From Acidobacteriota bacterium (GTDB lineage: Bacteria > Acidobacteriota > Vicinamibacteria > Vicinamibacterales > CAVVIG01), in the NCBI GenBank assembly GCA_018268955.1, contig JAFDVO010000022.1, positions 124,001 to 188,000 on the forward strand: a stretch of DNA of 64,000 nucleotides, given 5' to 3'. Both the position numbers and the translations under genes were made by a program. The notes below the pieces were generated by a model that saw only the letters and a list, made by a program, of their open reading frames with translations, had not been told where the DNA came from and searched no databases. Position 1 is the first letter of the stretch, and each line of letters starts with the position of its first letter. Shown piece by piece: positions 14,752-29,874 of the stretch.

Positions 14752-16596
14752 TCAGTTGCCCGAGAGCTGAATCGTGAGCGAGCGGACCCCGCTGATCGCC
14801 TGCTCGGTGCGGAGCTGCCATTCGCCGAGCGTCGCGGTCTGCAGCGCGCTGGTGTTGCCGCCGCTGCGGTCCGACTCGATGACGGCCAGCACGGACGGCG
14901 GGAGCGAGGACAGCAGTTCACCGCTCACCACGGCACCCGCATCCGACGACATCAGCTTCACGTAGATGGTGTTCGTGCGGCGGGCCCGGTTGAGCGCCTT
15001 GACGATCTGCGGCACGCTGCGCGGTTGCGGAAGCCGTGCCTCGCGCTGCTCGGTCTGGTTGAGGCGCTGCCCGTCGGACACGGTGAGCGCCAGCGTGCCG
15101 CGCGCATTCGGCGGGATCTCGATCGGAATCGTCTGGATGATGTCCTCGCCGCGATAGGTGCGCAGCAGCACCTTGAGCGGGATGGTGCGGCCAGGCCGAG
15201 GGCGTGGGTCGTCCAGCCACACCCGTTCGAGCTGGGCGGTGCGGGGCTGCTCGGTCGACTTCACCGAGATCTCCAGCGCCTCCATGTCGACCGTTTCGTA
15301 CTCGTTGTTCACCATCGCGGTGATGGGCGCGACGATGTAGGCCGAGGTATTCGACGCGGCGTTCTCGCCGGCAAACATGTTGTCGAGCGCGATCGGCTCG
15401 TGCCCCTTGATCTTCAGCCGGCCCTGCACGGAGTACGTGGAGGTGCCAAACTGCCGCTCGTACGACGTCAGAGTGTTCACGAGCGCGGTGTAGGTCATCA
15501 GCGGGCCGAACATCTGATCCTTCACCGCGTTGAAGTGGAAGGTGCGGGTCCCGATGCCGCGATCAGCCTCGAGGGTCATCGTGACCGGCAGCAGTGACGG
15601 CCCTGATCCGAGCCGCCCCGCGATCGCGGTGGCGCGATCCTGGTTGAAGGTACCGATGACCTCACCGGTGCTCGAGAGCTTCGCGGACGAGAAGAGGCTC
15701 GGCAGCACCGTGTAGACGTAGGCGCGGGTCATCGGGAACTCGATCGGCCCGAGGTTGTACATCGGGTGGCCGAACGCGTAGACCTTGTTGTCGTCGATGT
15801 GTGTCACCGTGCCGGTCGCGCCGAGCTCGAGGTCGCCGCTGACGAAGGTGACACCCACCGCGTCGCCTGGCTTCAGCGGTCCGTCGAACTCCGCCATGCC
15901 CGCACGTGCGGCCGCGGCCGCACCGACCGGCACGAACCCCGAGTTGCGGAAGGTCGGTGCGAGGACGTCCGCTGCGCGCGTGTCGAAGCCCGAAATCGAC
16001 AGCGGCGTCGCAATCGGCCGCATCATCGTGCCGATCTCCGCGCCGAAGCCCGAGACGGACGAGACGCCCACGAGCTGGGCGTCGCCCGCGCGCTCGGTGA
16101 ACGGGCGATTCAGGTTGAGTGCCTTGCGAAAGGAGGCAAGCAGCGACTCGGGCTCGAGCGGAAAGGTGACATCGACACGAGCGCCGCCGGGGCGCGTCGC
16201 CGCCAGTGCCGTCGCATCGGTCATCTCCGCGATAGGCGTGATGCCCGCAATCGGTTCCTTGGGGAAGCTGCCGAGGGAATACGAGACGGCGCCAATCAGC
16301 TTGCCGTCGACGTAGACCGGGCTGCCGCTCATGCCGGCGATGACGCCGGTGTCAGCCAGCGGGCCGCCTTCGAGCCTGGCGAGGATCAGGTTGCGCTGCG
16401 TGCCGATGACGTTCTCGATGACCCCGATGATGTGGGCCTTGAACTCCTCGACACGGGTGCCGTTGAACACGGTCCGTCCGACCCCGACCATGCCTGGTCG
16501 GATGTCGTCGACGCTCATCTGCGGCGTGGCCGCCCGAAGCGTCGAGAGGAGCAGGAGCGACAGGCTGAGCACGATCGCGACGCGTCGGATCTTCAT
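14752..16596 (-). CDS. SpoIVB-like peptidase S55 family protein
   Basis: A 614-residue exported protein with a signal peptide (VAIVLSLSLLLLSTLRAA). The S55 (SpoIVB) serine peptidase domain follows: DDIRPGMVGVGRTVF, then GVIAGMSGSPVYVDGKLIGA, where Ser92 of MSGSP is the expected catalytic serine. Further family motifs include GDLELGATGTVTHIDDNKVY and AFGHP. In sporulators SpoIVB triggers pro-sigma-K processing; here there is no sporulation context, so a different periplasmic role is likely. The C-terminal third is unassigned. First gene of an operon with the propeller protein, divergent from the aromatic operon. Confidence 0.85.
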   Translation of the reverse strand: MKIRRVAIVLSLSLLLLSTLRAATPQMSVDDIRPGMVGVGRTVFNGTRVEEFKAHIIGVIENVIGTQRNLILARLEGGPLADTGVIAGMSGSPVYVDGKLIGAVSYSLGSFPKEPIAGITPIAEMTDATALAATRPGGARVDVTFPLEPESLLASFRKALNLNRPFTERAGDAQLVGVSSVSGFGAEIGTMMRPIATPLSISGFDTRAADVLAPTFRNSGFVPVGAAAAARAGMAEFDGPLKPGDAVGVTFVSGDLELGATGTVTHIDDNKVYAFGHPMYNLGPIEFPMTRAYVYTVLPSLFSSAKLSSTGEVIGTFNQDRATAIAGRLGSGPSLLPVTMTLEADRGIGTRTFHFNAVKDQMFGPLMTYTALVNTLTSYERQFGTSTYSVQGRLKIKGHEPIALDNMFAGENAASNTSAYIVAPITAMVNNEYETVDMEALEISVKSTEQPRTAQLERVWLDDPRPRPGRTIPLKVLLRTYRGEDIIQTIPIEIPPNARGTLALTVSDGQRLNQTEQREARLPQPRSVPQIVKALNRARRTNTIYVKLMSSDAGAVVSGELLSSLPPSVLAVIESDRSGGNTSALQTATLGEWQLRTEQAISGVRSLTIQLSGN

Positions 16597-16659: not shown

Positions 16660-16686
16660 TTGACACGGTCGAGCGGCGTCTGTTAT
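16660..16686 (+). promoter_or_regulatory. Promoter of the aromatic amino acid operon
   Basis: TTGACA (16660-16665) is a perfect -35; TGTTAT (16681-16686) matches four of six -10 positions at a short 15-bp spacing. Transcription would start near 16693, leaving about 190 bases of leader before aroDE. The leader contains the attenuator. Confidence 0.6.
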
Positions 16687-16742
16687 CGTCCAGACTTTCC
16701 GTGGCTGGTCACGCTCCTCTTCATTTCACCAACCGTGTCGAC

Positions 16743-16811
16743 GTGCCGGGCGCGAGCCTGTCTGCGTGGTGGTATTGGTGCACATCGGAAGAGGCGTCCG
16801 CTCTGGCCTGA
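16743..16811 (+). CDS. trpL: trp leader peptide with Trp-Trp-Tyr-Trp codons
   Basis: A short leader frame ending in TGA at 16809-16811. Read from GTG 16743 it encodes 22 residues; codons at 16767-16778 are TGG TGG TAT TGG. Tryptophan is otherwise rare, so the cluster is diagnostic. No good ribosome site is seen. An in-frame GTG at 16701, about eight bases from the predicted transcript start, would give a 36-residue version that also translates through segment 1. The peptide's function is its translation: stalling at Trp (and possibly Tyr) codons switches the downstream RNA fold. Start codon uncertain, reading frame secure. Confidence 0.8.
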   Translation: MPGASLSAWWYWCTSEEASALA

Positions 16812-16838
16812 ACTGCCACCGCGAATACGACATGGACT

Positions 16839-16874
16839 GCCTCTTCAGCCCCCGGTTGAAGAGGCTTTTTTTTT
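16839..16874 (+). terminator. Intrinsic terminator of the trp attenuator
   Basis: Nine-bp perfect stem GCCTCTTCA/TGAAGAGGC (16839-16847 and 16857-16865), nine-base loop, then nine consecutive T (16866-16874). It is the only strong T-run I noticed in the window. It lies eight bases before the aroDE start, so it must act as a conditional terminator. Confidence 0.93.
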
Positions 16875-16882
16875 GACGTGCT

Positions 16883-18358
16883 GTGACCACGACACCCCGG
16901 CTCTGCGTAACCATCACCGCTCCCACCACGGCGGAACTCCGTCGGCAGCGGGACCTCGTCGCCGACGCGGACCTGATCGAACTGCGGCTCGACAGCGTCA
17001 GCGATCCGGACGTTGACGCCGTGCTCGAGGGTCGGACCCGTCCGGTCATCGTCACCTGCCGGGCCCGCTGGGAGGGCGGTGGGTTCAGTGGCTCCGAGGA
17101 TGAGCGCCGGTCGATCCTGCGGCGGGCCCTGGAACGCGGGGCCGAGTTCGTGGATATCGAATGGCGCGCCGGCTTCGCGGATCTCCTCGCCGAGTTCGGT
17201 CCGCGCGTCGTTCTCTCGTCGCACGACTTCACGGGCGTTCCGGCGGACCTGCAGGCGCAGGCGGATGCCATGCGGGCGACCGGCGCCGGCGTCGTGAAGA
17301 TCGCGGTGAAGGCCACACGGCTCCGCGACTGCCTGACGCTGCTCGACCTGTCCCGGCGTTTCGGACCTGCCGAACGAGCGGTGCTGATCGGCATGGGGGA
17401 CGCCGGCATGGCGACCCGCGTGCTCGCGCAGCGATTCGGCGCGGCCTGGACGTACGCCGGGCTGGTGCGGGACGTCGGGCAGATCTCAGCCTCCCGGCTG
17501 CTCGAGCAGTTCCGCTTCCGTCAGATCACCGACGCGACGGCGGTCTACGGCCTCACCGGCTTCCCGCTCGGTCACTCCGTCTCGCCGGACATGCACAACG
17601 CCGCCTTCGCCGAGGCGGGGATCGATGCGGTCTACCTGCCACTGCCTGCGGCCGATGCCGACGATTTCGTGGCGTTCGCGCGGGCGTTCGGCGTCAAGGG
17701 CGCGAGCGTCACCATCCCACACAAGGTGTCGTTCCTCGATCGCGTGCAGGAACTCGACGACTTGTCACGGCGTGTCGGCGCGCTCAACACGCTTCGGATG
17801 GATGGCGACCGCTGGAGCGGCTGCAATACCGATGTCGCCGGGTTCCTCCAACCGTTGCGCGATCGCGGCGTGACACTGCGAGGGTGCCGTGCCTCGATCC
17901 TCGGCGCGGGCGGCTCCGCCCGAGCCGTCGCCGTGGCGCTTGCCTCGGAAGGCGCGCGGGTGACGGTGCATGCGCGCGACGCGCAGAAGGCCGCCATCGT
18001 TGCCAGTGCAGTTGGCGGTGACGCAGGGCCATTTCCGCCAGCGGTCGGATCGTGGGACCTGCTGGTGAACTGCACGCCGGTCGGCATGCAGCCACGCATC
18101 GACGTGAGCCCGATGCCTCCGGACGCCTACGACCGCGGGCTCGTCTACGACCTGATCTACAACCCGGCGGTCACCCGCCTGATGCGTGACGCGGCGACTG
18201 CCGGATGCGACACGATCGGTGGCCTCGACATGCTGGTGGGCCAGGCCGAGGCGCAGTTCCGCTGGTGGACCGGCGTCAGCGCGCCCACGGGAGTGATGCG
18301 GACAGCGGCCACGCGGCGGCTTGCGGAGTTCAACGCCAATGAAAATCACGTCGTTTGA
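16883..18358 (+). CDS. aroDE: Bifunctional 3-dehydroquinate dehydratase (type I)/shikimate dehydrogenase
   Basis: A 491-residue fusion covering two successive steps, dehydroquinate to dehydroshikimate to shikimate. Residues 1-215 are type I dehydroquinase: Glu33 and Arg35 (LIELRLDS), catalytic His114 (SSHDF) and Schiff-base Lys139 (VVKIAVKA). Residues 220-480 are shikimate dehydrogenase: substrate site GFPLGHSVSPDMHN, catalytic Lys281 (TIPHK), Asp317 (NTD) and NADP loop GAGGSARA at 341-348. The fusion is known from plants and some bacteria. GTG 16883 follows the attenuator immediately and has no obvious ribosome site. First structural gene of the aromatic operon. Confidence 0.95.
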   Translation: MTTTPRLCVTITAPTTAELRRQRDLVADADLIELRLDSVSDPDVDAVLEGRTRPVIVTCRARWEGGGFSGSEDERRSILRRALERGAEFVDIEWRAGFADLLAEFGPRVVLSSHDFTGVPADLQAQADAMRATGAGVVKIAVKATRLRDCLTLLDLSRRFGPAERAVLIGMGDAGMATRVLAQRFGAAWTYAGLVRDVGQISASRLLEQFRFRQITDATAVYGLTGFPLGHSVSPDMHNAAFAEAGIDAVYLPLPAADADDFVAFARAFGVKGASVTIPHKVSFLDRVQELDDLSRRVGALNTLRMDGDRWSGCNTDVAGFLQPLRDRGVTLRGCRASILGAGGSARAVAVALASEGARVTVHARDAQKAAIVASAVGGDAGPFPPAVGSWDLLVNCTPVGMQPRIDVSPMPPDAYDRGLVYDLIYNPAVTRLMRDAATAGCDTIGGLDMLVGQAEAQFRWWTGVSAPTGVMRTAATRRLAEFNANENHVV

Positions 18359-19811
18359 AGAGTTCTCGGAGCTGGCCCGGCGCGGCACGTTCGTGCCGGT
18401 GTGCAAGGAGCTGGTCGCCGACCTGCTGACGCCGGTGTCGGCCTTCCTGAAGATCGCCGAGGACGCGGACTACGCCTTCCTGCTCGAGTCGGTCGAAGGC
18501 GGTGAGCACGTGGGCCGCTACTCGTTCCTCGGCAAGGATCCGTTCCTGATCCTGCGCGCCTCGAACGGACGCACGACGATCGAGCGTGGCGGTGAAGTGA
18601 CCGCAAGCGACGCGCCGTTCCTCGAGACGCTCCGGAAACTGATGACCGATTATCGGTCGCCGTTCGTGCCGGACCTGCCACGTTTCACGGGCGGGGCCGT
18701 GGGCTACTTCGGCTACGGCGCGGCCTCCTGGTTCGAGCCGGTGCTCGGGGATCTGGGGTCGTCACCGGACGGCGCAGACGAGGCCGGGTTCATGCTCTTC
18801 GACACGGTGCTGGCGTTCGACCATGTCCAGCACCGGATCCTGATCATCGCCAACGCCCGCATCACGGCCGACGACGACCTCGAGTCGCTCTATCAGTTCG
18901 CGTGCGCGAAGATCGGCTTCCTCGAACGCGAACTCGAGCGCAACCTGTCCGTTGCGAAGAGGTCCTACGCCGACGACCTCGCGTTCACCTCCAACCTGAC
19001 GCGCGATCGGTTCGAACAGCAGGTGCGGACGGCGAAGGAGCACATCGCGGCTGGCGACATCTACCAGGTCGTCCTCTCGCAGCGGTTCGAGGCGGAGGTG
19101 AAGGCCGACCCCTTCACGGTCTACCGCGCGCTTCGTCACGTGAATCCGTCGCCCTACATGTATTTCATCCGCATGGCCGGCGTGTCGGTGGTCGGCTCGT
19201 CACCGGAAATGCTGGTCCGCGTGGAGGGCTCGCGTGTGGAGACGCACCCCATCGCGGGCACGCGGCCCCGCGGCCGCAGCGAGGACGAAGACCTCCGCCT
19301 CGCCGACGAACTGAAGCGCAACGAGAAGGAGCGGGCCGAGCACGTGATGCTCGTGGACCTCGGTCGCAACGATGTCGGACGGGTCTGTGATTATGGGTCG
19401 GTGCGCGTGCCGCAGTTCATGGGCCTCGAGCGGTTCTCGCACGTGATGCACCTGACGTCCGTCGTCGAAGGGCGCCTGTCGAGCGAGTGCGATCGGCTCG
19501 ACGCGCTTGCCTCGTGCTTCCCGGCGGGCACCGTGTCGGGCGCCCCCAAGGTGCGCGCGATGCAGATCATCCGCGAGCTCGAGCCGTCTGGACGGGGGCT
19601 CTATGCCGGCGCGGTCGGCTACCTGGATTTCGCTGGCAATCTCGACTTCTGCATCGCCATCCGCACGATCATCATGTCTGCGGGGAAGGCGTTCGTGCAG
19701 GCCGGCGCCGGCATCGTGATGGACTCGAACCCGACCGCGGAATACGACGAAACACGCGACAAGGCCCGCGCCGCGATGCGGGCGCTGCAACTCGCCGAGG
19801 CGGGGCTATGA
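18339..19811 (+). CDS. trpE: Anthranilate synthase component I
   Basis: A 490-residue subunit that converts chorismate to anthranilate using ammonia from TrpG. The allosteric Trp-binding motif is seen at LLESVEGGEHVGRYSFLG (N-terminal domain). The chorismate-binding domain shows GDIYQVVLSQRFE, PIAGTRPRG, LVDLGRNDVGRV and SGAPKVRAMQII. I start at ATG 18339, which overlaps the end of aroDE by 20 bases; a longer frame starting at 18321 gives an atypical N-terminus. Feedback inhibition by Trp is expected from the motif. Confidence 0.97.
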   Translation: MKITSFEEFSELARRGTFVPVCKELVADLLTPVSAFLKIAEDADYAFLLESVEGGEHVGRYSFLGKDPFLILRASNGRTTIERGGEVTASDAPFLETLRKLMTDYRSPFVPDLPRFTGGAVGYFGYGAASWFEPVLGDLGSSPDGADEAGFMLFDTVLAFDHVQHRILIIANARITADDDLESLYQFACAKIGFLERELERNLSVAKRSYADDLAFTSNLTRDRFEQQVRTAKEHIAAGDIYQVVLSQRFEAEVKADPFTVYRALRHVNPSPYMYFIRMAGVSVVGSSPEMLVRVEGSRVETHPIAGTRPRGRSEDEDLRLADELKRNEKERAEHVMLVDLGRNDVGRVCDYGSVRVPQFMGLERFSHVMHLTSVVEGRLSSECDRLDALASCFPAGTVSGAPKVRAMQIIRELEPSGRGLYAGAVGYLDFAGNLDFCIAIRTIIMSAGKAFVQAGAGIVMDSNPTAEYDETRDKARAAMRALQLAEAGL

Positions 19812-19852
19812 CGGGCCGGCGCTGGCGTGGCGCACTCAGCGTGGACACGGTC

Positions 19853-19890
19853 CAATCTGCCATCAGCAATCTGCCATCAGCAATTCTGGA
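19853..19890. repeat. 14-bp tandem repeat in the trpE-trpG gap
   Basis: CAATCTGCCATCAG at 19853 and 19867, then a decayed copy from 19881. The 93-bp trpE-trpG gap is otherwise empty and is the only large gap between the seven trp genes. Confidence 0.7.
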
Positions 19891-19904
19891 ATCCAGCGGG
19901 GCAT

Positions 19905-20480
19905 ATGGTGTTCGTCCTCGATAACTACGACTCGTTTACCTACAACCTGGTGCAGTACCTCGGCGAGCTTGGCGCCGACGTGGTGGTCAAGCGGAACGAC
20001 GAAGTGACGGTCGACGAGATCCGCGCCATGCACCCGGACCGCATCGTGCTCTCTCCCGGGCCAGGCCGCCCTGAGGACGCCGGTGTGATGATGGATGTCA
20101 TCCGCGAGCTCGGGCCGACCACGCCAATCCTCGGCGTGTGCCTCGGGCACCAGGGAATCGGTGCGGCGTTCGGCGGGAAAGTCGTGCGGGCGCCCGAGCC
20201 AATGCACGGCAAGACGTCCACCGTCGAGCACAACGCGCGCGGCGTGTTCAGCGGGCTGACCGCCCCGTTCGAGGCCTCGCGCTACCATTCACTCGTTGTC
20301 TCTCCAGAAGGGTTCCCCGCGGACCTCGAGGTCACCGCGCGCACCCAGGGGGACGGCGTCATCATGGGCCTGAGGCACAGGACCCTGCCGATTCAGGGCG
20401 TGCAGTTCCACCCGGAATCGATTCTCACCAGTGAAGGACGCCACATCCTGCGGAACTTCCTCGACGGACGGTTCGACTGA
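19905..20480 (+). CDS. trpG: Anthranilate synthase component II (glutamine amidotransferase)
   Basis: A 191-residue class I amidotransferase delivering ammonia to TrpE. Seen motifs: DNYDSFTYNLVQYLGELGAD at the N-terminus, oxyanion loop LSPGPGRPEDAG, nucleophile Cys in GVCLGHQ, and the His/Glu pair in QFHPESI. I start at ATG 19905 because homology begins there; the upstream open frame is repeat sequence. The stop overlaps trpD by one base (TGATG). It could also serve p-aminobenzoate synthesis, as TrpG does in some bacteria. Confidence 0.96.
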   Translation: MVFVLDNYDSFTYNLVQYLGELGADVVVKRNDEVTVDEIRAMHPDRIVLSPGPGRPEDAGVMMDVIRELGPTTPILGVCLGHQGIGAAFGGKVVRAPEPMHGKTSTVEHNARGVFSGLTAPFEASRYHSLVVSPEGFPADLEVTARTQGDGVIMGLRHRTLPIQGVQFHPESILTSEGRHILRNFLDGRFD

Positions 20481-21511
20481 TGTTCCAGGCACTCATCGAG
20501 AAGCTGATTCGGCGCGAAGACCTGACGACGGACGAAGCGGCCGCTGCCATGGCCGAGGTCATGGAGGGACGCGCCGCGGACCCGCAGATTGCGGGCTTCC
20601 TGATCGGCCTCGCCATGAAGGGCGAGCGCCCACAGGAGATCGTCGGCCTCGCGCGCACAATGCGGGCCCACAGTGTGAAGCTCTCACGCACCTTCGATGA
20701 CGTGTTCGACACGTGTGGGACCGGCGGCGACCGGTCCGGCACCTTCAACATCTCCACAGGCGCAGCCATCGTGCTTGCGGCGGCCGGGGTGCGGGTGGCC
20801 AAGCACGGCAACCGCTCGGTCTCCAGCCTCTCGGGTAGCGCCGACGTGTTCGAGGTTCTCGGAGTGTCGGTCAGCGCGACGCCTGCGACGGTGGAGCGGT
20901 GCCTCGGCGAGGCCGGCATCGGCTTCTTCTTCGCCCCGACCTTTCATCCGTCGATGCGCCACGCCGGCGCGGCGCGGCGGGCGCTCGGGGTGCGAACCGC
21001 CTTCAACCTGCTGGGCCCGCTCACGAACCCGGCCGGGGCCACGCGGCAGATCGTCGGTGTGCCCCGTCCTGAGTTCACCGAGCTGATGGCACGAAGCCTC
21101 ATGCTGCTCGGGTCCGAACGGGCGTGGGTGGTCCACGGGGCCGATGGCATCGATGAGATTTCGACCACGGGCTACACGAAGGTGTCCGAGTGCCGCAACG
21201 GTGCCGTGAAGACCTTCTACCTGCACCCGGCCGACTTCGGGCTGCACAAGGCATCCGCGGGCGCGCTCAAGGGCGGGTCCGCTGCGGACAATGCCGTCAT
21301 CATCCGTGACGTGCTCGATGGTACGGCCGGACCGGCGAGGGACGTGGTCGTGCTGAACGCGGGCGCCGCGCTCTTCGTCGCTGGACGCGCCGAGTCCATC
21401 CGCGCGGGCATGCAGATGGCTGCGCAGGCGATTGACACGGGCGCTGCGCGCGCGACCCTCGCACGGTTGGTGACGCTCTCGCAGGCCGACGCAGCAGGGG
21501 TGACGCAATGA
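20480..21511 (+). CDS. trpD: Anthranilate phosphoribosyltransferase
   Basis: A 343-residue enzyme joining anthranilate to PRPP. Family motifs are visible: the PRPP loop DTCGTGGDRSGTFNIST, KHGNRSVSSLSGSADVFE, and FAPTFHPSMRHA followed by RTAFNLLGPLTNPAG. The ATG overlaps the trpG stop by one base and its own stop overlaps trpC (ATGA), so translation is coupled on both sides. Confidence 0.97.
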   Translation: MFQALIEKLIRREDLTTDEAAAAMAEVMEGRAADPQIAGFLIGLAMKGERPQEIVGLARTMRAHSVKLSRTFDDVFDTCGTGGDRSGTFNISTGAAIVLAAAGVRVAKHGNRSVSSLSGSADVFEVLGVSVSATPATVERCLGEAGIGFFFAPTFHPSMRHAGAARRALGVRTAFNLLGPLTNPAGATRQIVGVPRPEFTELMARSLMLLGSERAWVVHGADGIDEISTTGYTKVSECRNGAVKTFYLHPADFGLHKASAGALKGGSAADNAVIIRDVLDGTAGPARDVVVLNAGAALFVAGRAESIRAGMQMAAQAIDTGAARATLARLVTLSQADAAGVTQ

Positions 21512-22317
21512 GCGTCGAACAGGCCACCACCGCCGACCTCCTCGGCACCATCATCGCTGCGACCAGGCGGATCACGGAGGTGCGCGCCGAGCGGGAGCCG
21601 CTGGCGGCGCTCGCGAAACGCGCGGAGCAACGGACCCCGAGGCCAGGCGTCTTCACCGAGGCGTTGTCGAGGACCGGCCGATGGAACGTGATCGCCGAGT
21701 GCAAGCGGCGTTCGCCCTCGAAAGGGGTGCTGCGGCACGAGTACGATCCAGTGACCATCGCTGCCTCCTACGCCGCCGCAGGCGCTGCAGCCATTTCCGT
21801 GCTGACGGAGCCGACCTTCTTCGATGGCGCCCCTGCGCACCTGGAAGCCGTGCGCGCCGCCGTCACGACGCCGCTGCTGCGGAAGGACTTCATCGTGTCG
21901 GAGTACCAGCTGCTCGAAGCGCGCGCGATGGGGGCAGATGCGGCACTGCTGATCGTTGCGGCGCTGACGCCCGCTGAACTCCGGCTGTTGTCGGATACGG
22001 CGGCGTCACTCGGCCTCGACACGCTCGTCGAGGTGCACAGTGCCGACGAACTCCGGATTGCGATCGACACCGGCGCAAAGGTCATCGGCGTGAACAACCG
22101 CAACCTGCGAACGCTCGCGGTCGACGTGCACGCCTCTGAGACGCTGGTCTCGATGATGCCCACGGGGGTGGTGGCCGTCAGCGAGAGCGGATTGCGGAGC
22201 TCCGCGGACCTCTCGCGGCTGTCGGCGCTTGGCTACCGGGCCTTCCTGATCGGCGAGCGGTTCATGACCGATCCGGATCCGGGCGCCGCGCTCGCGACGC
22301 TCTTGCGGGGCGCCTGA
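21508..22317 (+). CDS. trpC: Indole-3-glycerol phosphate synthase
   Basis: A 269-residue TIM-barrel enzyme that closes the indole ring. Seen are the phosphate/substrate motifs VIAECKRRSPSKGVL, LRKDFIVSEYQLLEARAMGA, VIGVNNRNLRTLAVD and AVSESGLRSSADL. It is a separate gene from trpF here, unlike the enterobacterial trpCF fusion. Overlaps trpD by four bases and trpF by one. Confidence 0.97.
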   Translation: MSVEQATTADLLGTIIAATRRITEVRAEREPLAALAKRAEQRTPRPGVFTEALSRTGRWNVIAECKRRSPSKGVLRHEYDPVTIAASYAAAGAAAISVLTEPTFFDGAPAHLEAVRAAVTTPLLRKDFIVSEYQLLEARAMGADAALLIVAALTPAELRLLSDTAASLGLDTLVEVHSADELRIAIDTGAKVIGVNNRNLRTLAVDVHASETLVSMMPTGVVAVSESGLRSSADLSRLSALGYRAFLIGERFMTDPDPGAALATLLRGA

Positions 22318-22964
22318 TGTTCGTGAAAATCTGCGGCATTACTCGGGTGAGTGATGCGCAGGTCGCCGCCGCCTGCGGGGCATCGGCGATCGGGTTCATC
22401 TTCTGGCCGAAAGGGAAGCGGTGGGTGGAGCCGGACGTGGCCCGTGCCATCGCGAGGTCGCTGCCCCCGTTCGTCACCCCGGTTGGGGTGTTCGTGGACG
22501 AAACGGTCGAGCGCATGAACGAGATCGCGACGTTCGTCGGGCTTGGAGCCATTCAGCTCCACGGCGCTGAACAGCCGGACATCGTCGACCGCCTCGTACG
22601 TCCCGTCGTCAAGGCGGTGGGACGGATTGACGCGTCGCGGATTGGCGAGTGGCCGGCGCGTGTGACGATGCTGGTTGACGCGCCTGACCCGGTGAACCAC
22701 GGGGGCACGGGGGCCCGGGCGGACTGGGCCGGGGCGGCGCGGCTGGCCGCCGTGCGCCGGACGATTCTTGCGGGCGGCATCCGGCCTGAGAATGTGGTCG
22801 AGGCCGTCACGACCGTCCGACCCTTCGGCATCGATGTCGCGTCCGGTGTGGAAGATGCGCCCGGTATCAAGAACCCGGACCGGATCCGGGACCTGTTCGA
22901 CGCGCTTCGCGCCGTGCCGCGGAGCGACGATTCTCGAGAGGCGCGCGAACTCCGCGCGCGGTGA
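22317..22964 (+). CDS. trpF: Phosphoribosylanthranilate isomerase
   Basis: A 215-residue TIM-barrel isomerase. The N-terminal motif [13 protein letters not shown] contains the catalytic Cys6; [13 protein letters not shown] carries the catalytic Asp and [10 protein letters not shown] and [10 protein letters not shown] bind phosphate. Start ATG overlaps the trpC stop by one base, and the stop overlaps the trpB GTG by four. Confidence 0.96.
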
Positions 22965-24172
22965 TGACAATGCAGACGCCTGTGCGCCGCGATCCTGATG
23001 AGCGCGGCTACTTCGGACCCTTCGGCGGGAAATACGTGCCGGAAACGCTGGTCGAACCGATCGAGGAACTCCAGCGCGCGTACTACGCCATTCGCGACGA
23101 TGTCACGTTCCAGAGCGAACTGGCGCGCCTGCTGAAGCACTACGTCGGTCGGCCGACGCCGCTCTACGAAGCGGGCCGGCTGTCGGCCGCGTCCGGCGGT
23201 GCCCGGATCTTCCTCAAGCGCGAGGACCTCACCCATACGGGTGCGCACAAGATCAACAACGCCCTGGGGCAGGCGCTGCTCGCGCGGCGCATGGGCAAGA
23301 AGCGGATCGTGGCCGAGACCGGCGCAGGCCAGCACGGGGTGGCGACGGCAACCGCGTGTGCGCTGCTCGGGCTCGAGTGCCACGTCTACATGGGCGTCGA
23401 CGACATGGCGCGGCAGGCGCTGAACGTCGTGCGCATGCGCATGCTGGGGGCCGAGGTGATCGGCGTGGACGCCGGCAGCCGCACGCTGAAGGATGCAATC
23501 AACGAGGCGATGCGCGACTGGGTGACCAACGTCACCACGACGTATTACCTGCTTGGCTCTGCCCTTGGCCCGCATCCCTACCCGCTGATGGTCCGCGAGT
23601 TCCAGTCGGTCATCGGCCGCGAGGCCCGGGCGCAGATCATCGAGCAGGCGGGCCGGCTGCCGGAAGCGGTGGTGGCGTGCGTCGGCGGCGGCAGCAACGC
23701 GATCGGGATCTTCGATGCGTTCGTGAACGACACGGGCGTGCGGCTGATCGGCGTGGAAGCGGGCGGCGAGGAGATCATCAAGGGGCGCCATGCGGCCCGG
23801 TTCGCTGGCGGGAGCATGGGCGTGCTGCAGGGGACGCGCACATTCGTGCTGCAGGACGACAACGGCAACATCGAGCTGACGCACTCCGTCTCCGCGGGCC
23901 TCGACTACGCGGCCATCGGACCCGAGCACGCGTTTCTCCGTCACATCGGCCGCGCCGAGTACGCCTACGCGACCGACGCGGATGCGATTGCCGCCTTCAA
24001 GACGCTGGCGCGGCTCGAGGGCATTCTCCCGGCGCTCGAGTCGTCGCATGCCATCGCGCATGCGCAGCAACTTGGAAAGACGCTCGGGCCCGGCGCCGTG
24101 ATCCTGGTGAACCTGTCGGGCCGCGGTGACAAGGACGTGCACACGATGGAGCAGTATGTCGAGACTCGCTGA
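22961..24172 (+). CDS. trpB: Tryptophan synthase beta chain
   Basis: A 403-residue PLP enzyme condensing indole with serine. The standard TrpB1 type: [15 protein letters not shown] near the N-terminus, PLP-binding Lys97 in [25 protein letters not shown], and the phosphate-binding loop [13 protein letters not shown] at 22961 overlaps the trpF stop; ATGs at 22964 and 22970 are alternatives. Its 3' end overlaps trpA by 17 bases, consistent with the alpha-beta complex. Confidence 0.97.
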
Positions 24173-24962
24173 GACGTTTGCGGCACTCCGCAAGGAGGGG
24201 CGCCCCGGCCTTGTCACGTACGTGACGGCAGGGGATCCGGACCTCACCAGGTCCGCCGAGATCGTGAAGGCGCTTGCGCGGGCCGGTGCCGACGTGCTCG
24301 AGGTCGGGGTGCCGTTCTCCGATCCGCTCGCGGATGGCCCGGTGATCCAGCGGGCGACCGAGCGGGCCCTGGCCGCAGGGGGCAGCTTGCGCGCGACGCT
24401 CGATCTCGTGCAGTCGGTCCGGCGCGAAATCGCGACCCCGATCGTCATCTTCACGTATGCCAACCCGATCGTCCGCATGGGGCTGGACGCTTTTGCGCGT
24501 CGCGCGGCCGAGGTCGGTGTCGACGGCGTCCTCGCACTGGACCTGCCGGTCGAAGAGGCGGACGACTTCCGGGATGCGATCACGCGCGCCGGCCTCGACA
24601 CCATCTTTCTGCTGAGCCCGACGACCACGGATGCCCGGATCAGGAAGGCGGCCGAACTGGGTCGCGGCTTCCTGTACGGCATCTCGCGCCTCGGCGTGAC
24701 CGGCGCACGCGACACCGTGGCCACCGGCGCGAAGGAGATGGTCGCCCGCATCCGCGCGATCACGGACATGCCGCTTGCGCTCGGGTTCGGCATCTCGCGC
24801 CCCGAGCACGTCGCGGAAGTGGGCACCTACGCGGACGCGGCAGTCGTCGGCAGCGCGCTCGTGGCGCTGATTGCAGAAGCGGGGCAGTCACCCGATCTGA
24901 TCCGGCGCGTGGAGGACTACGTAGGCTCGCTCCGGGCGGCCTGCGTCCCGACAAAGGCCTGA
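24156..24962 (+). CDS. trpA: Tryptophan synthase alpha chain
   Basis: A 268-residue TIM-barrel lyase that releases indole to TrpB. The catalytic pair is Glu49 (LEVGVPFSD) and Asp60 (DPLADGP), the same numbers as in the enterobacterial enzyme. Other motifs are [22 protein letters not shown] and [11 protein letters not shown] start at ATG 24156 ([20 protein letters not shown]) inside the trpB end; a longer frame gives a non-homologous extension. Confidence 0.96.
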
Positions 24963-24967
24963 GGCAC

Positions 24968-25303
24968 ATGGCGACGCTCGACGACCTCCGGAACGACATC
25001 GATCGCGTGGACGAAGTGCTGGTGCGGCTCCTGAACGAGCGTGCCCGATGTGTCTGCGAGATCGGACGATTGAAGAAGGACACCGGCATGGCGATCTACC
25101 AGCCGGACCGCGAGAAGCAGGTGCTCGCGCACGTGCGGGCGATTGCGTCCGAAGGGCCGCTCGGTCCCGACGCGATTGCGCGGCTGTTCGAACGGATCAT
25201 CGACGAGGCGCGCCGCCTCGAGCGACGGGTCATTCACGGGGAGGCCGACGAACTGGGCCAGGACGTGACGACACCTGGAGCCGCGGCCGCCGCGCAGGAG
25301 TAG
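24968..25303 (+). CDS. aroQ: Chorismate mutase (AroQ class)
   Basis: A 111-residue all-helical monofunctional chorismate mutase, converting chorismate to prephenate for Phe and Tyr. Typical pattern: LDDLRNDIDRVDEVLVRLLN (first-helix Arg), RARCVCEIGRLKKDTG (second Arg and Lys), YQPDREKQVL, and an FERIIDEARRLE helix. The last ~25 residues are Ala-rich and outside the fold. It starts six bases after trpA and is followed 15 bases later by aroF. Confidence 0.93.
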   Translation: MATLDDLRNDIDRVDEVLVRLLNERARCVCEIGRLKKDTGMAIYQPDREKQVLAHVRAIASEGPLGPDAIARLFERIIDEARRLERRVIHGEADELGQDVTTPGAAAAAQE

Positions 25304-25317
25304 GAAAGCAGGGTCCT

Positions 25318-26364
25318 ATGGTTGTGGTGATGCAGGAGGGCGCGTCCGAGGCCCAGATCGAAGGGGTGGTCAAGCGTCTCGTCGAGATGGGCATGGACGT
25401 GCACCGTTCGACCGGCGTCGAGCGCACCGTGCTCGGTGCCGTCGGACAGGGCCGACCTGACGCAACACTCATCGAGATGATGGACGGCGTCGACGAGGTC
25501 GTGCGGATCTCGTCCCCCTACAAGCTGGCGAGCCGCACCTTCAAGGCGGAGCCGACCGTTGTCACCGTCGGGGACATCCGGATTGGCGGCGACGAAGTGA
25601 TCGTGATGGCGGGCCCCTGCTCGGCCGAGAACGAGCAGCAGGTCAGGTCCACCGCCGCGGCTGTCCGTCGAGCCGGCGCGAAGATCCTGAGGGGCGGCGC
25701 GTTCAAGCCACGGTCCTCCCCGTATGCGTTCCAGGGGCTCGGCGAAGAAGGTTTGCGCCTGCTGCGCGACGCGGCGAACGCCGAGAACCTTGCGCTGGTG
25801 TCCGAGGTGATGGACATCAGCCAGATCGACCTGATCGAGCGCTACTGCGACATCTTCCAGGTCGGCGCCCGGAACATGCAGAACTTCACGCTGCTCCGGG
25901 AACTCGGCCATCGTCGCAAGCCGGTCCTGCTGAAGCGCGGTATCTCGGCCACCATCGAAGAGTGGCTGCTGTCCTCCGAGTACATCCTGAGCGGCGGCAA
26001 CACGGACGTCATCCTGTGCGAACGCGGCATCCGGACGTTCGAGACGGCGACCCGCAACACGTTCGACGTGTCGGCGATTGCCATGGTCAAGAAGCTGAGC
26101 CACCTGCCGGTCGTCGCGGATCCGAGCCACGGCGCGGGTCGTCGTGACATGGTCGCGCCGCTCGCGCGAGCGGCAGTCGCTGCCGGTGCCGACGGCCTGA
26201 TCGTCGAGGTCCACTGCGACCCCGACCACGCGCTTAGCGACGGCGCGCAGTCCATGTTCCCTGCGCAGTTCGATCGGCTGATGGCCGAACTCCGCATCAT
26301 CGCGCCGGCGATCGGCCGGTCGATCTGCCTCGAGAGCGCACCGCGCCGAGGCTGGGGGAAGTAG
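25318..26364 (+). CDS. aroF: 3-deoxy-7-phosphoheptulonate (DAHP) synthase, type I-beta
   Basis: A 348-residue first enzyme of the shikimate pathway. Residues 1-70 form the ferredoxin/ACT-like N-terminal domain found in Thermotoga-type enzymes, associated with feedback control by Tyr or Phe. The barrel follows: VMAGPCSAEN, GGAFKPRSSPYAFQG, VGARNMQNF, KRGISATIEEWL and VADPSHGAG. ATG 25318 follows an AGGAAAG site. Being in the Trp-attenuated transcript, entry into the whole pathway appears linked to Trp (and perhaps Tyr) charging. Confidence 0.95.
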   Translation: MVVVMQEGASEAQIEGVVKRLVEMGMDVHRSTGVERTVLGAVGQGRPDATLIEMMDGVDEVVRISSPYKLASRTFKAEPTVVTVGDIRIGGDEVIVMAGPCSAENEQQVRSTAAAVRRAGAKILRGGAFKPRSSPYAFQGLGEEGLRLLRDAANAENLALVSEVMDISQIDLIERYCDIFQVGARNMQNFTLLRELGHRRKPVLLKRGISATIEEWLLSSEYILSGGNTDVILCERGIRTFETATRNTFDVSAIAMVKKLSHLPVVADPSHGAGRRDMVAPLARAAVAAGADGLIVEVHCDPDHALSDGAQSMFPAQFDRLMAELRIIAPAIGRSICLESAPRRGWGK

Positions 26365-26450: not shown

Positions 26451-27329
26451 ATGCTGAATGCTGAAGGGCCGGCGGCGGCTCCGTTTGCGTCGATCGGAAT
26501 CGTCGGTCTGGGCCTCATCGGTGGGTCGATCGCGCTCGCCGTGCGTGAGGTGTGGCCCGCTGTGCGGGTCGTCGGTGTCGACCGCGCGGAGGTTGTCGCA
26601 TTTGCGGAGGACGCACAGGCGATCGACGCCGGCGGTGACCAGCTGGGACTCCTCGGGGACGTGGACCTCATCGTCCTGGCTGCTCCTGTTCGCCAGAACC
26701 TCAAGCTCCTGCCGGAGCTGCCGCGTATCGTGAGGCCGGACGCCGTCATCACGGACGTCGGCAGCACGAAGCGCGACATCGTCCAGGCCGCTGCCGCGCT
26801 ACCGCCTGGCACGCGGTTCGTGGCGGGGCATCCAATCGCCGGTGCGGCGGTGGGCGGCTTCCAGAACGCACGCGCCGATCTGTTTCGGCAGCGCCCGTGG
26901 CTGTTCACGCCGACCCCGTCGACCGATCGTGAGGTGGTGCTCTCGCTCGAGCGCTTTGCCGCGGCGCTCGGTTCCACACCAGGCGTCATGACGCTCGACC
27001 AGCACGACCGCGTCTTTGCGTTCGTGAGTCACCTGCCGCAGCTGGCCGTGAGCGCACTGATGGCTGTGGCCGGCAGCGCCGTCGGCGCCGATGGGCTTGC
27101 CCTCTCGGGCCGCGGCCTGCTCGACTCGACGCGGCTCGCTTCGAGCCCTGCGGATATCTGGCGTGACGTCGCCGCGGTGAACGCGGACCAGATCGGGCCA
27201 GCGCTGGATGCGCTCATCGCCGTGCTCCAGGACCTCCGCACCGACCTGACCCAGGGAACGCGCCTGACGGAGGTCTTCGAGCAGGCGGCCCGATGGCGGG
27301 ACGAACTCGTCCGGCGCACGCAGCTATAA
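26451..27329 (+). CDS. tyrA: Prephenate dehydrogenase
   Basis: A 292-residue NAD(P)-dependent enzyme making 4-hydroxyphenylpyruvate for Tyr. The N-terminal Rossmann loop is IGIVGLGLIGGSIAL; ITDVGSTKRDIV and the substrate-site motif GHPIAGAAVGGF follow, then HDRVFAFVSHLPQL in the helical dimerisation domain. No C-terminal ACT domain is present. Start ATG 26451 has no ribosome site and sits in an AATGCTGAATGCTGAA repeat. Last gene of the aromatic group; the TAA stop overlaps a TATAAT box for the next operon. Confidence 0.94.
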   Translation: MLNAEGPAAAPFASIGIVGLGLIGGSIALAVREVWPAVRVVGVDRAEVVAFAEDAQAIDAGGDQLGLLGDVDLIVLAAPVRQNLKLLPELPRIVRPDAVITDVGSTKRDIVQAAAALPPGTRFVAGHPIAGAAVGGFQNARADLFRQRPWLFTPTPSTDREVVLSLERFAAALGSTPGVMTLDQHDRVFAFVSHLPQLAVSALMAVAGSAVGADGLALSGRGLLDSTRLASSPADIWRDVAAVNADQIGPALDALIAVLQDLRTDLTQGTRLTEVFEQAARWRDELVRRTQL

Positions 27330-27336: not shown

Positions 27337-28028
27337 ATGAACAAGGTGCTCGCGAGCGCCGACGCAGCCGTGGCCCTCGTGCCGAATGGCTCATCGATCC
27401 TGATGGGCGGCTTCGGTCTCTGCGGCATCCCCGAGAACCTCATCAAGGCCCTGCACGCGAAGGGGACACGTGACCTGACGGTCATCAGCAACAACGCCGG
27501 TGTGGACGACTACGGCATCGGCATCCTGCTGCGTGCCCGCCAGGTCCGGAAGATGGTCTCGACCTACGTCGGCGAGAACAAGGAATTCGAACGGCAGTTC
27601 CTGAGCGGCGAACTGACGGTCGACCTGGTGCCGCAGGGCACGTTCGCCGAGCGGATCCGCGCCGGCGGTGCCGGCATCGCCGGCTTCTTCACCCCGACCG
27701 GCTACGGCACGCTCGCGGCGGAAGGCAAGGAGACGCGGCTCATTGGTGACCGGCACTACGTGCTGGAGTCGCCCCTCACCGCCGACTTCGCGTTCGTGAA
27801 GGCGTGGAAGGGCGACCGGCTCGGCAACCTCGTCTACCGACGCACGGCCCGCAACTTCAACCCGGTCATGGCCACGGCTGGACGGGTCACCATCGCGGAG
27901 GTCGAGCATCTGGTCGAACCGGGCGAACTCGATCCCGACCACATCGTGACCCCGGGCATCTTCGTCAAGCACGTCGTCGTGGGGACGACGTATGAGAAGC
28001 GCATCGAGAAGCGCACGGTGCGACAGTC

Positions 28029-28032
<4 letters not shown>
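27337..28032 (+). CDS. scoA: 3-oxoacid CoA-transferase, subunit A
   Basis: A 231-residue alpha subunit of a succinyl-CoA:3-ketoacid (acetoacetate) CoA-transferase. Motif [19 protein letters not shown] with the oxyanion glycines, [27 protein letters not shown] and FFTPTGYGT are characteristic. ATG at 27337 is likely the 5' end of the mRNA. The stop overlaps the subunit B start by four bases. With the thiolase downstream it would activate and split acetoacetate. Confidence 0.95.
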
Positions 28033-28683
<651 letters not shown>

Positions 28684-28691
<8 letters not shown>

Positions 28692-29874
28692 GGACTTCGA
28701 GGTCGTCATTCTCGGTGCGTGTCGCACCGCAATCGGGTCGTTTGGCGGCGCGCTGAAGGACTTTACCGCGCCTGATCTGGGCGCCATCGTGGTGCGCGAG
28801 GCGATTAGGCGAGCCGGTGTCGACAAGGCGGATGTCGGCGACGTCATCCTCGGCTGCGTGCTGCAGGCCGGTGCCGGCATGAACGTCGCCCGGCAGGCGG
28901 CCCTGAAGGCCGGGTTGCCGAACGAAATCCCGGGCGAGGTGGTCAACCGCGTCTGCGGGTCTGGCCTGCAGTCGGTCGTGCACGCCATCGAGGCCATTCG
29001 GGTGGGATACGTCGACACGATGCTGGCCGGCGGCACCGAGTCGATGTCGAATGCGCCCTATCTCCTGAAGCAGGCGCGCTGGGGCTACCGCATGGGCAAC
29101 GCCGAGGCGGTGGACTCGATGATCAGCGACGGGCTGACCTGTGCCGTCTGCGACATCCATATGGGACTCACGGCCGAGGAGGTCGCGAACCGTTTCGCTG
29201 TTTCACGCGCCGATCAGGATGCGTTCGCGGCGGAGAGCCAGCGTCGCGCGGCGGCCGCCATTGCGGCGGGAGCGTTCGCGGACGAAATCGTCCCGGTCGA
29301 CATCCCGCAGCGGAAGGGCGATCCGATCCGCTTCGCGGTGGACGAGTACCCGCGCGCCGGGACGACCGTGGAGAAACTGGCCGCACTGAAGCCGGCGTTC
29401 CGCAAGGACGGTACGGTGACGGCTGGCAACGCCTCTGGCATCAACGATGGCGCCGCGGCATTGGTGATCACGAGCGGGGAGAAGGCGAGGACGGTCGGCA
29501 CGCGTCCGCTCGCGCGCATCCTGTCGTACGTGTCCACCGGGGTCGACCCGAAGATCATGGGCATCGGCCCCGTGCCCGCCGTGCGCAAGGTGCTCGATCG
29601 GGCCGGGCTGTCCATTGCCGACATCGACCTCTTCGAGCTCAACGAGGCATTCGCCGCCCAGTCGCTTGCGGTTGTACGTGAGCTGCAACTGGATCCAGCG
29701 AAGGTGAACGTCAACGGCGGTGCGATTGCGCTGGGCCATCCGATTGGCGCGAGCGGCGCGCGCGTGCTCACCACGCTGGTGTACGCCCTGCGTGCACGTC
29801 AGCTGCGCTACGGTGTCGCGTCCCTCTGCATCGGCGGCGGCATGGGCATCGCGATGGCCGTCGAAGCGTTGTGA
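28684..29874 (+). CDS. atoB: Acetyl-CoA C-acetyltransferase (thiolase)
   Basis: A 396-residue thiolase, cleaving acetoacetyl-CoA to two acetyl-CoA or the reverse. Cys91 ([11 protein letters not shown]) is the acyl nucleophile; the C-terminal motifs [19 protein letters not shown] (His) and SLCIGGGMG (Cys) complete the active site. The only start consistent with homology is TTG 28684, inside the scoB end. The GTGA at its stop overlaps the next gene. A scoAB-thiolase order indicates ketone-body or short-chain acid degradation. Confidence 0.94.

Follow-up and report, generated by a model that had tools for sequence, protein, structure and literature searches.

The genes for aromatic amino acid synthesis in this stretch of acidobacterial DNA are preceded by a promoter, a short reading frame with a cluster of Trp codons and a terminator hairpin, which raises the question of whether the element is a ribosome-mediated transcription attenuator and, if so, which amino acids it would sense. 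The stretch analysed, hereafter the window, comprises 64,000 nucleotides of a 4.77 Mb genome of the order Vicinamibacterales. The operon that follows the element on the plus strand consists of eleven genes in the order aroDE-trpE-trpG-trpD-trpC-trpF-trpB-trpA-aroQ-aroF-tyrA, all assigned by NCBIfam models except aroQ. The first gene, aroDE, encoding a 3-dehydroquinate dehydratase / shikimate dehydrogenase, spans 16883-18358. It is followed by trpE (18321-19811, given as the ORF, whose true start may be internal), trpG (19827-20480, matched from residue 27), trpD (20480-21511), trpC (21508-22317), trpF (22317-22964), trpB (22961-24172) and trpA (24126-24962, matched from residue 18). The last three genes are aroQ, a type II chorismate mutase (24968-25303; PF01817, E 2.9e-26), aroF, a DAHP synthase (25048-26364 as the ORF, with the family match beginning near 25318), and the prephenate dehydrogenase gene tyrA (26451-27329). 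A sequence-only reading of this DNA had proposed that shikimate genes are controlled together with trp; this proposal holds, and the operon that would be controlled extends beyond it to aroQ, aroF and tyrA. Its guess that the DNA is acidobacterial also agrees with the relatives of the genome.

The gene order is widely shared. In all 20 representatives compared, which come from nine families, trp genes follow aroDE as far as the stretches reach; two f11 genomes of this comparison yielded no aroF. A prephenate dehydratase gene is present elsewhere in the window's genome, on another contig (G000:C9), and tblastn searches of plasmids returned distant aroD/aroE only. Behind tyrA in the window, and in the same direction, lie two CoA-transferase subunit-like ORFs and a thiolase-like ORF (27337-29874), relatives of which also stand behind tyrA in several genomes. 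A genome with a WWWWC leader (G113, locus L178) has CoA-transferase genes right after trpA, and aroF and tyrA are missing in its stretch.

The promoter ahead of the leader has a -35 box, TTGACA (16660-16665, plus strand), separated by an 18-nt spacer from a -10 box, TATCGT (16684-16689). It is conserved among relatives in the order, with TTGACN present in 88 of the 104 genomes scanned and TANNNT kept at the -10 position. The transcript would have its 5' end at about 16696, a few bases before the GTG at 16701 that opens the leader ORF (16701-16811, plus strand). This frame of 36 codons ends at a TGA (16809-16811) and would be translated as VAGHAPLHFTNRVDVPGASLSAWWYWCTSEEASALA. Its start thus lies almost at the predicted 5' end of the transcript, a near-leaderless arrangement that corrects the earlier reading. 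Of the 87 genomes with a strict promoter, 69 have a start codon (ATG, GTG or TTG) of the Trp frame at 6-23 nt past the -10 box, compared with 17 and 6 for the other two frames; when ATG only is counted, the numbers are 43 for the Trp frame and 3 and 0 for the others. The commonest distance from the -10 box to the start is 9-12 nt, which predicts a 5' untranslated region of a few bases. Since the leader start codons are often GTG or TTG and stand without a Shine-Dalgarno site, it is from these frame statistics that we infer translation of the leader. On the minus strand, a divergent ORF of 614 codons (14752-16596) starts 64 bases from the attenuator promoter; by appearance only, it resembles a signal-peptide-bearing, peptidase-type protein.

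Past the Trp codons, the leader RNA can fold in two ways. The terminator (16839-16865, plus strand, as are all segments) is a 12-bp hairpin of 16839-16850 with segment 4 (16854-16865), and nine T (16866-16874), the U-run of an intrinsic terminator, follow it directly. Segment 3 (16834-16850) is shared: its first part, 16834-16846 (GGACTGCCTCTTC), is the antiterminator arm and pairs with segment 2 (GAAGAGGCGTCC, 16788-16799, with a core at 16788-16795), while 16839-16850 is the 5' arm of the terminator, so that the 2:3 and 3:4 pairings are mutually exclusive. The predicted energies in the window are -22.2 kcal/mol for the 2:3 duplex and -23.3 kcal/mol for 3:4. With a ribosome placed at the Trp codons, the free RNA ahead of it folds as 2:3 (-24.6) before segment 4 exists; with a ribosome at the stop codon, the free RNA ahead folds as the terminator (-20.9). 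Folding had been proposed as a check in the sequence-only reading, and these energies agree with it, but the 190-nt leader folded alone gives an unimpressive z of -1.55. Because the single-sequence fold reaches only this value, the case rests on comparison. All of the motifs that had been named (TTGACA, CCTCTTC, TGG TGG TAT TGG, the complementary segments and the nine T) do lie where they had been placed.

Comparison across the order supports the two exclusive hairpins. A covariance model, R1, was built from 38 upstream regions of relatives. In the window's genome it matches the attenuator with an E value of 9.5e-21; a match at 0.027 is the same hairpin on the opposite strand, and the next separate match is at 0.18. 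Within the order, aroDE was detected in 150 of 162 genomes and R1 matches in 143 of 162, directly upstream of aroDE wherever the coordinates of both were compared. Seven genomes bear aroDE without an R1 match, and the five of them with listed coordinates have partial aroDE hits only. When 106 genomes are aligned on a segment 3 anchored as GCCYYYYC, standard pairs make up 96% of the 2:3 cells and 99% of the 3:4 cells. A complement of segment 3 matching at 8 of 8 positions, with G-U allowed, is found in 81 of these 106 genomes, compared with 2.1 expected; in the window, the perfect 8-nt complement in the segment 2 region recurs in 0.05% of dinucleotide shuffles.

The variable positions are the most telling. 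Segment 3 carries C for T (positions 4, 6 and 7) in 23 cells spanning families f2, f7, f12, f14 and f15, and the partner is G in 23 of 23 of these cells in segment 4 and in 21 of 23 in segment 2; the pattern that selected segment 2 did not distinguish A from G. One strand that covaries with two competing partners is the signature of a switch. A pair count over the 38 sequences gives 95.5% paired with 26 double-changed cells for 3:4 (slid controls, 33-61%, maximum 60.8%) and 91.3% paired with 18 double-changed cells for 2:3 (slid controls, 38-57%, maximum 56.5%). Both counts exceed all 500 shuffles, although kinship inflates such counts, which were made without a species tree. Most of the relatives are draft genomes. 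Some of the conservation of segment 2 may be for the peptide, because in the window's family the same nucleotides are read as Glu-Glu-Ala. An explanation by chance resemblance in GC-rich DNA, with which the unremarkable single-sequence fold would agree, is refuted by the order-wide conservation, the covariation and the frame specificity, and we assign it next to no weight.

The pairing of segment 1 (CCTCTTC, 16716-16722) with segment 2 fares differently. In the window the match is 7 nt long, with a predicted energy of -12.6 kcal/mol, and it receives weak support in relatives: order-wide, the longest match to segment 2 has a mean length of 5.09 nt, versus 4.62 nt in shuffles, a weak tendency. 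Thus, of the alternating 1:2, 2:3 and 3:4 pairings that had been proposed, the latter two are exclusive and covary, but 1:2 does not appear to be conserved across the order, and the locus should not be forced into the classical scheme of four segments. The classical trp attenuation logic itself is supported by the order-wide conservation of the Trp codons and segments 2, 3 and 4 and by their three-way covariation. Absence of conserved Trp codons and stems among relatives had been named as the finding that would speak against attenuation; both the tandem Trp codons and the stems are kept across the order.

Outside the order, R1 also gave weak matches in other classes. Those read in G492, G340, G464, G444, G420, G359 and G511 have no Trp leader, and we rejected them as ordinary terminators or chance. 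Three others, in genomes of other acidobacterial classes (G427, L203; G524, L205; G222, L206), have a near-leaderless Trp leader of their own, WWWY or WWWC with arms of the GCCCTCCGG..CCGGAGGGC type, upstream of a trpB-like gene that was tentatively assigned by eye as trpB2.

As would be expected for an attenuator, the locus combines a leader ORF bearing codons for the pathway product, an intrinsic terminator before the first gene, a covarying and exclusive antiterminator, and a placement of codons and stop around segment 2 that suits a ribosome-controlled choice. We put the probability that the element is a ribosome-mediated transcription attenuator of the aromatic supra-operon at roughly 0.9, based on its parts, their exclusivity and covariation, the conservation of frame and codons, and the gene context, as read from sequence and comparison. 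The scheme that we infer, which supplies the transcript start, the translation, the stalling, the kinetics and the Tyr signal, is as follows. Transcription would begin at about 16696, and a ribosome would load at the GTG at 16701, nearly at the 5' end of the RNA. If charged tRNA-Trp, and probably tRNA-Tyr too, were scarce, the ribosome would stall at 16767-16778, its front edge reaching almost to segment 2. The latter would then pair with segment 3 once this is made, the terminator would be blocked, and polymerase would enter aroDE-trpEGDCFBA-aroQ-aroF-tyrA. If the amino acids were ample, the ribosome would reach the stop at 16809 and cover part of segment 2, allowing the 3:4 terminator to form with its nine U ahead of aroDE.

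Two other modes of control were weighed against attenuation. The main role of the hairpin might be to affect translation of aroDE, or the element might chiefly yield a small RNA or peptide that acts in trans like Sinorhizobium rnTrpL/peTrpL. The U-run in the window ends 9 nt ahead of the aroDE start, and the S. meliloti precedent is also leaderless (PMC7298713). Among relatives, however, aroDE begins anywhere from about 10 to 148 nt past the terminator, so that no ribosome site is systematically masked, and both the U-run and the competing antiterminator would be superfluous; we therefore consider this explanation improbable as the main mode of action. It is possible that a released RNA or peptide acts in trans, as in S. 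meliloti, in addition to attenuation.

A leader of another type, binding a protein or a tRNA (TRAP, T-box or riboswitch), was also considered. In B. subtilis, TRAP controls an aromatic supra-operon that unites aro, trp and tyrA genes behind a leader terminator, and the gene set here is similar. In contrast, mtrB, which encodes TRAP (PF02081), was found in 0 of 27 genomes of the window's family by a search whose control hits B. subtilis. Likewise, trpR (PF01371) was found in 0 of the same 27 genomes, with a control that hits E. coli, and Rfam gave no relevant match up to an E value of 5, including to RF00513 (Trp_leader) and the T-box models. What is conserved, moreover, is a set of codons and no binding fold. 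A binding leader thus seems very improbable, even more so than an action on translation or in trans, and ribosome-mediated attenuation remains the preferred reading.

The amino acids that such an attenuator would sense can be approached through its regulatory codons, which in the window are Trp-Trp-Tyr-Trp, TGGTGGTATTGG (TGG TGG TAT TGG; 16767-16778, plus strand). An in-frame cluster of Trp codons lies ~90-120 nt ahead of the terminator in nearly all of the upstream regions compared (109 relatives and the window, order-wide). When the seven codons from the first Trp onward are counted in 104 genomes, Trp occurs 289 times, Tyr 102 times and Phe 43 times. Leader motifs across the order include WWYW, WRWYW and WWWY, together with WWWFFYF in family f13 and WWWWC, which lacks Tyr, in family f9. 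In 68 of 100 genomes, 12 or 15 nt separate the last aromatic codon from segment 2, and in 78 of 100 the leader stop falls 15, 18 or 21 nt after segment 2 begins. A distance of 12-15 nt is about that from the A-site codon to the front edge of the ribosome.

One proposal is that the same mechanism senses Trp alone and that the Tyr and Phe codons play no part. It agrees with the presence of a Trp cluster in nearly every leader and with family f9, whose leaders read WWWWC or WWWC yet whose operon has tyrA; on the same observation, we rejected the idea that leader codons strictly mirror operon content within the order. A precedent points the same way: the AroR leader of Corynebacterium glutamicum contains Phe-Tyr-Phe and responds to Phe, but Tyr availability is without effect (PMC11802643), and hence Tyr in a leader need not mean that Tyr is sensed. 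Against Trp alone stands the enrichment of Tyr and Phe, which make up 33% of the non-Trp codons near the Trp cluster versus 7.7% in the leader body. The Tyr codons of the 104 genomes are both TAT (60) and TAC (42), indicating that the amino acid is kept and not the DNA. Leaders of family f13 (L164-L167) read WWWFFYF or WFWFIYF and are thus rich in Phe too; pheA was absent from the f13 stretches fetched, as judged by one prephenate dehydratase query. The distance from the codons to segment 2 is also tighter when Tyr and Phe are counted (standard deviation 4.0 versus 5.4), a difference that is partly phylogeny. Finally, the operon makes Tyr precursors, and its inclusion of aroF, aroQ and tyrA makes a pooled aromatic signal plausible. 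We regard Trp-only sensing as a serious contender that falls somewhat short of an even chance, and conclude that the attenuator probably senses several aromatic amino acids. The Trp codons named as the signal in the sequence-only reading are therefore borne out as a conserved cluster, but the conserved regulatory codons include Tyr and Phe as well.

A different set of codons is found in family f16, which belongs to another order of the same class. Here, the terminator ahead of aroDE shares its core (CCTCTTC..GAAGAGG or GGAGAGG) with that of the window's order, and the leaders end in His-rich sequences, each running up to the stop codon: RRWRATVHHHRYHA, RRWRPVFRHHRYHP, RRWRPIFHRYHRT, ERWRPTFHHHRHYD, VWRGSVHHHRHHS, RRWRTVFHYHWHP, WRPFFHFRYHP and RRWRAVFHYWHP. 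Leaders of the HHHRYH-like type, with a single Trp and Tyr/Phe, are present at loci L214, L216, L219, L221-L225 and L246. In five f16 genomes, trpE starts about 8-9 kb past the end of aroDE, and his genes were identified in this gap in two of the five: a HisZ-like protein, hisD and a probable hisC in G164 (L248), and hisG, hisB, a HisH-like amidotransferase and hisA in G165 (L244). Thus, the f16 operon appears to run aroDE-his-trp, and the identity of the leader codons appears to follow operon content when f16 is compared with the window's order. The f16 elements differ in two further respects: a GC-rich, hairpin-like additional repeat follows the stop, and the distance to segment 3 is greater. 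No such element was seen in the regions read from families f17, f18 and f19.

Taken as a whole, these comparisons suggest a broader model, which we rate at even odds. A single near-leaderless leader would read Trp and Tyr, and Phe in some families, gating the supply of aromatics all the way from DAHP synthase to Trp and Tyr. Across the class, its codons would have been exchanged, to His with a single Trp and Tyr/Phe kept, as the operon content changed, with the terminator core retained. The attenuator extends over an order of a major soil phylum, where it shows an apparent pooled aromatic signal and, order-wide, a near-leaderless design. Where the operon seems to go from trp to his-trp, the codons turn from Trp/Tyr to His; this change amounts to a natural experiment on the re-tuning of a switch, and it makes multi-signal sensing directly testable.

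For a long time, leader-peptide attenuation of amino-acid operons was known chiefly from Proteobacteria and Actinobacteria. A 2010 survey found almost no function associated with the attenuators predicted in Acidobacteria; as far as its authors knew, these two phyla, Proteobacteria and Actinobacteria, were the only ones in which leader-peptide systems had been demonstrated (PMC2965389). For Chlamydia, too, leaders have been suggested (PMC3937554). The literature that we searched contained no description of such an attenuator in Acidobacteria, although the search was limited and is not proof of novelty. Among known systems, S. meliloti trpL/rnTrpL likewise has a leaderless ORF at the 5' end of its transcript and attenuation without a repressor (PMC7298713), but its leader of 14 codons precedes trpE(G) only, whereas the leader described here has about 36 codons, precedes an eleven-gene aromatic operon and belongs to another phylum. 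The trp attenuators of the actinobacteria Corynebacterium and Streptomyces share the double or triple UGG and a conserved triple of complementary segments (PMC1262725); their core is gGCC-rGCy-GGCC and they control the trp operon only, in contrast to GRRGRGGC-GCCYYYYC-GRRGRGGC here. C. glutamicum AroR resembles the element in placing aromatic codons ahead of an operon with the DAHP synthase gene aroF (PMC11802643), but these are Phe-Tyr-Phe and not Trp codons, the reported response is to Phe and not Tyr, and the locus lies apart from the trp operon. The likeness to enterobacterial trpL (RF00513) extends to tandem Trp codons, competing 2:3 and 3:4 hairpins, an intrinsic terminator and a stop codon that lets the finishing ribosome cover segment 2. 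Our best reading is thus that the element is a variant of this classical attenuator, from which it differs in lacking a match to the Rfam Trp_leader model and, it seems, a conserved 1:2 pairing, in belonging to a family without TrpR, in its near-leaderless start without a Shine-Dalgarno site, in its mixed aromatic codons, with Tyr and Phe beside Trp, and in its gene set, which begins with aroDE and ends with tyrA.
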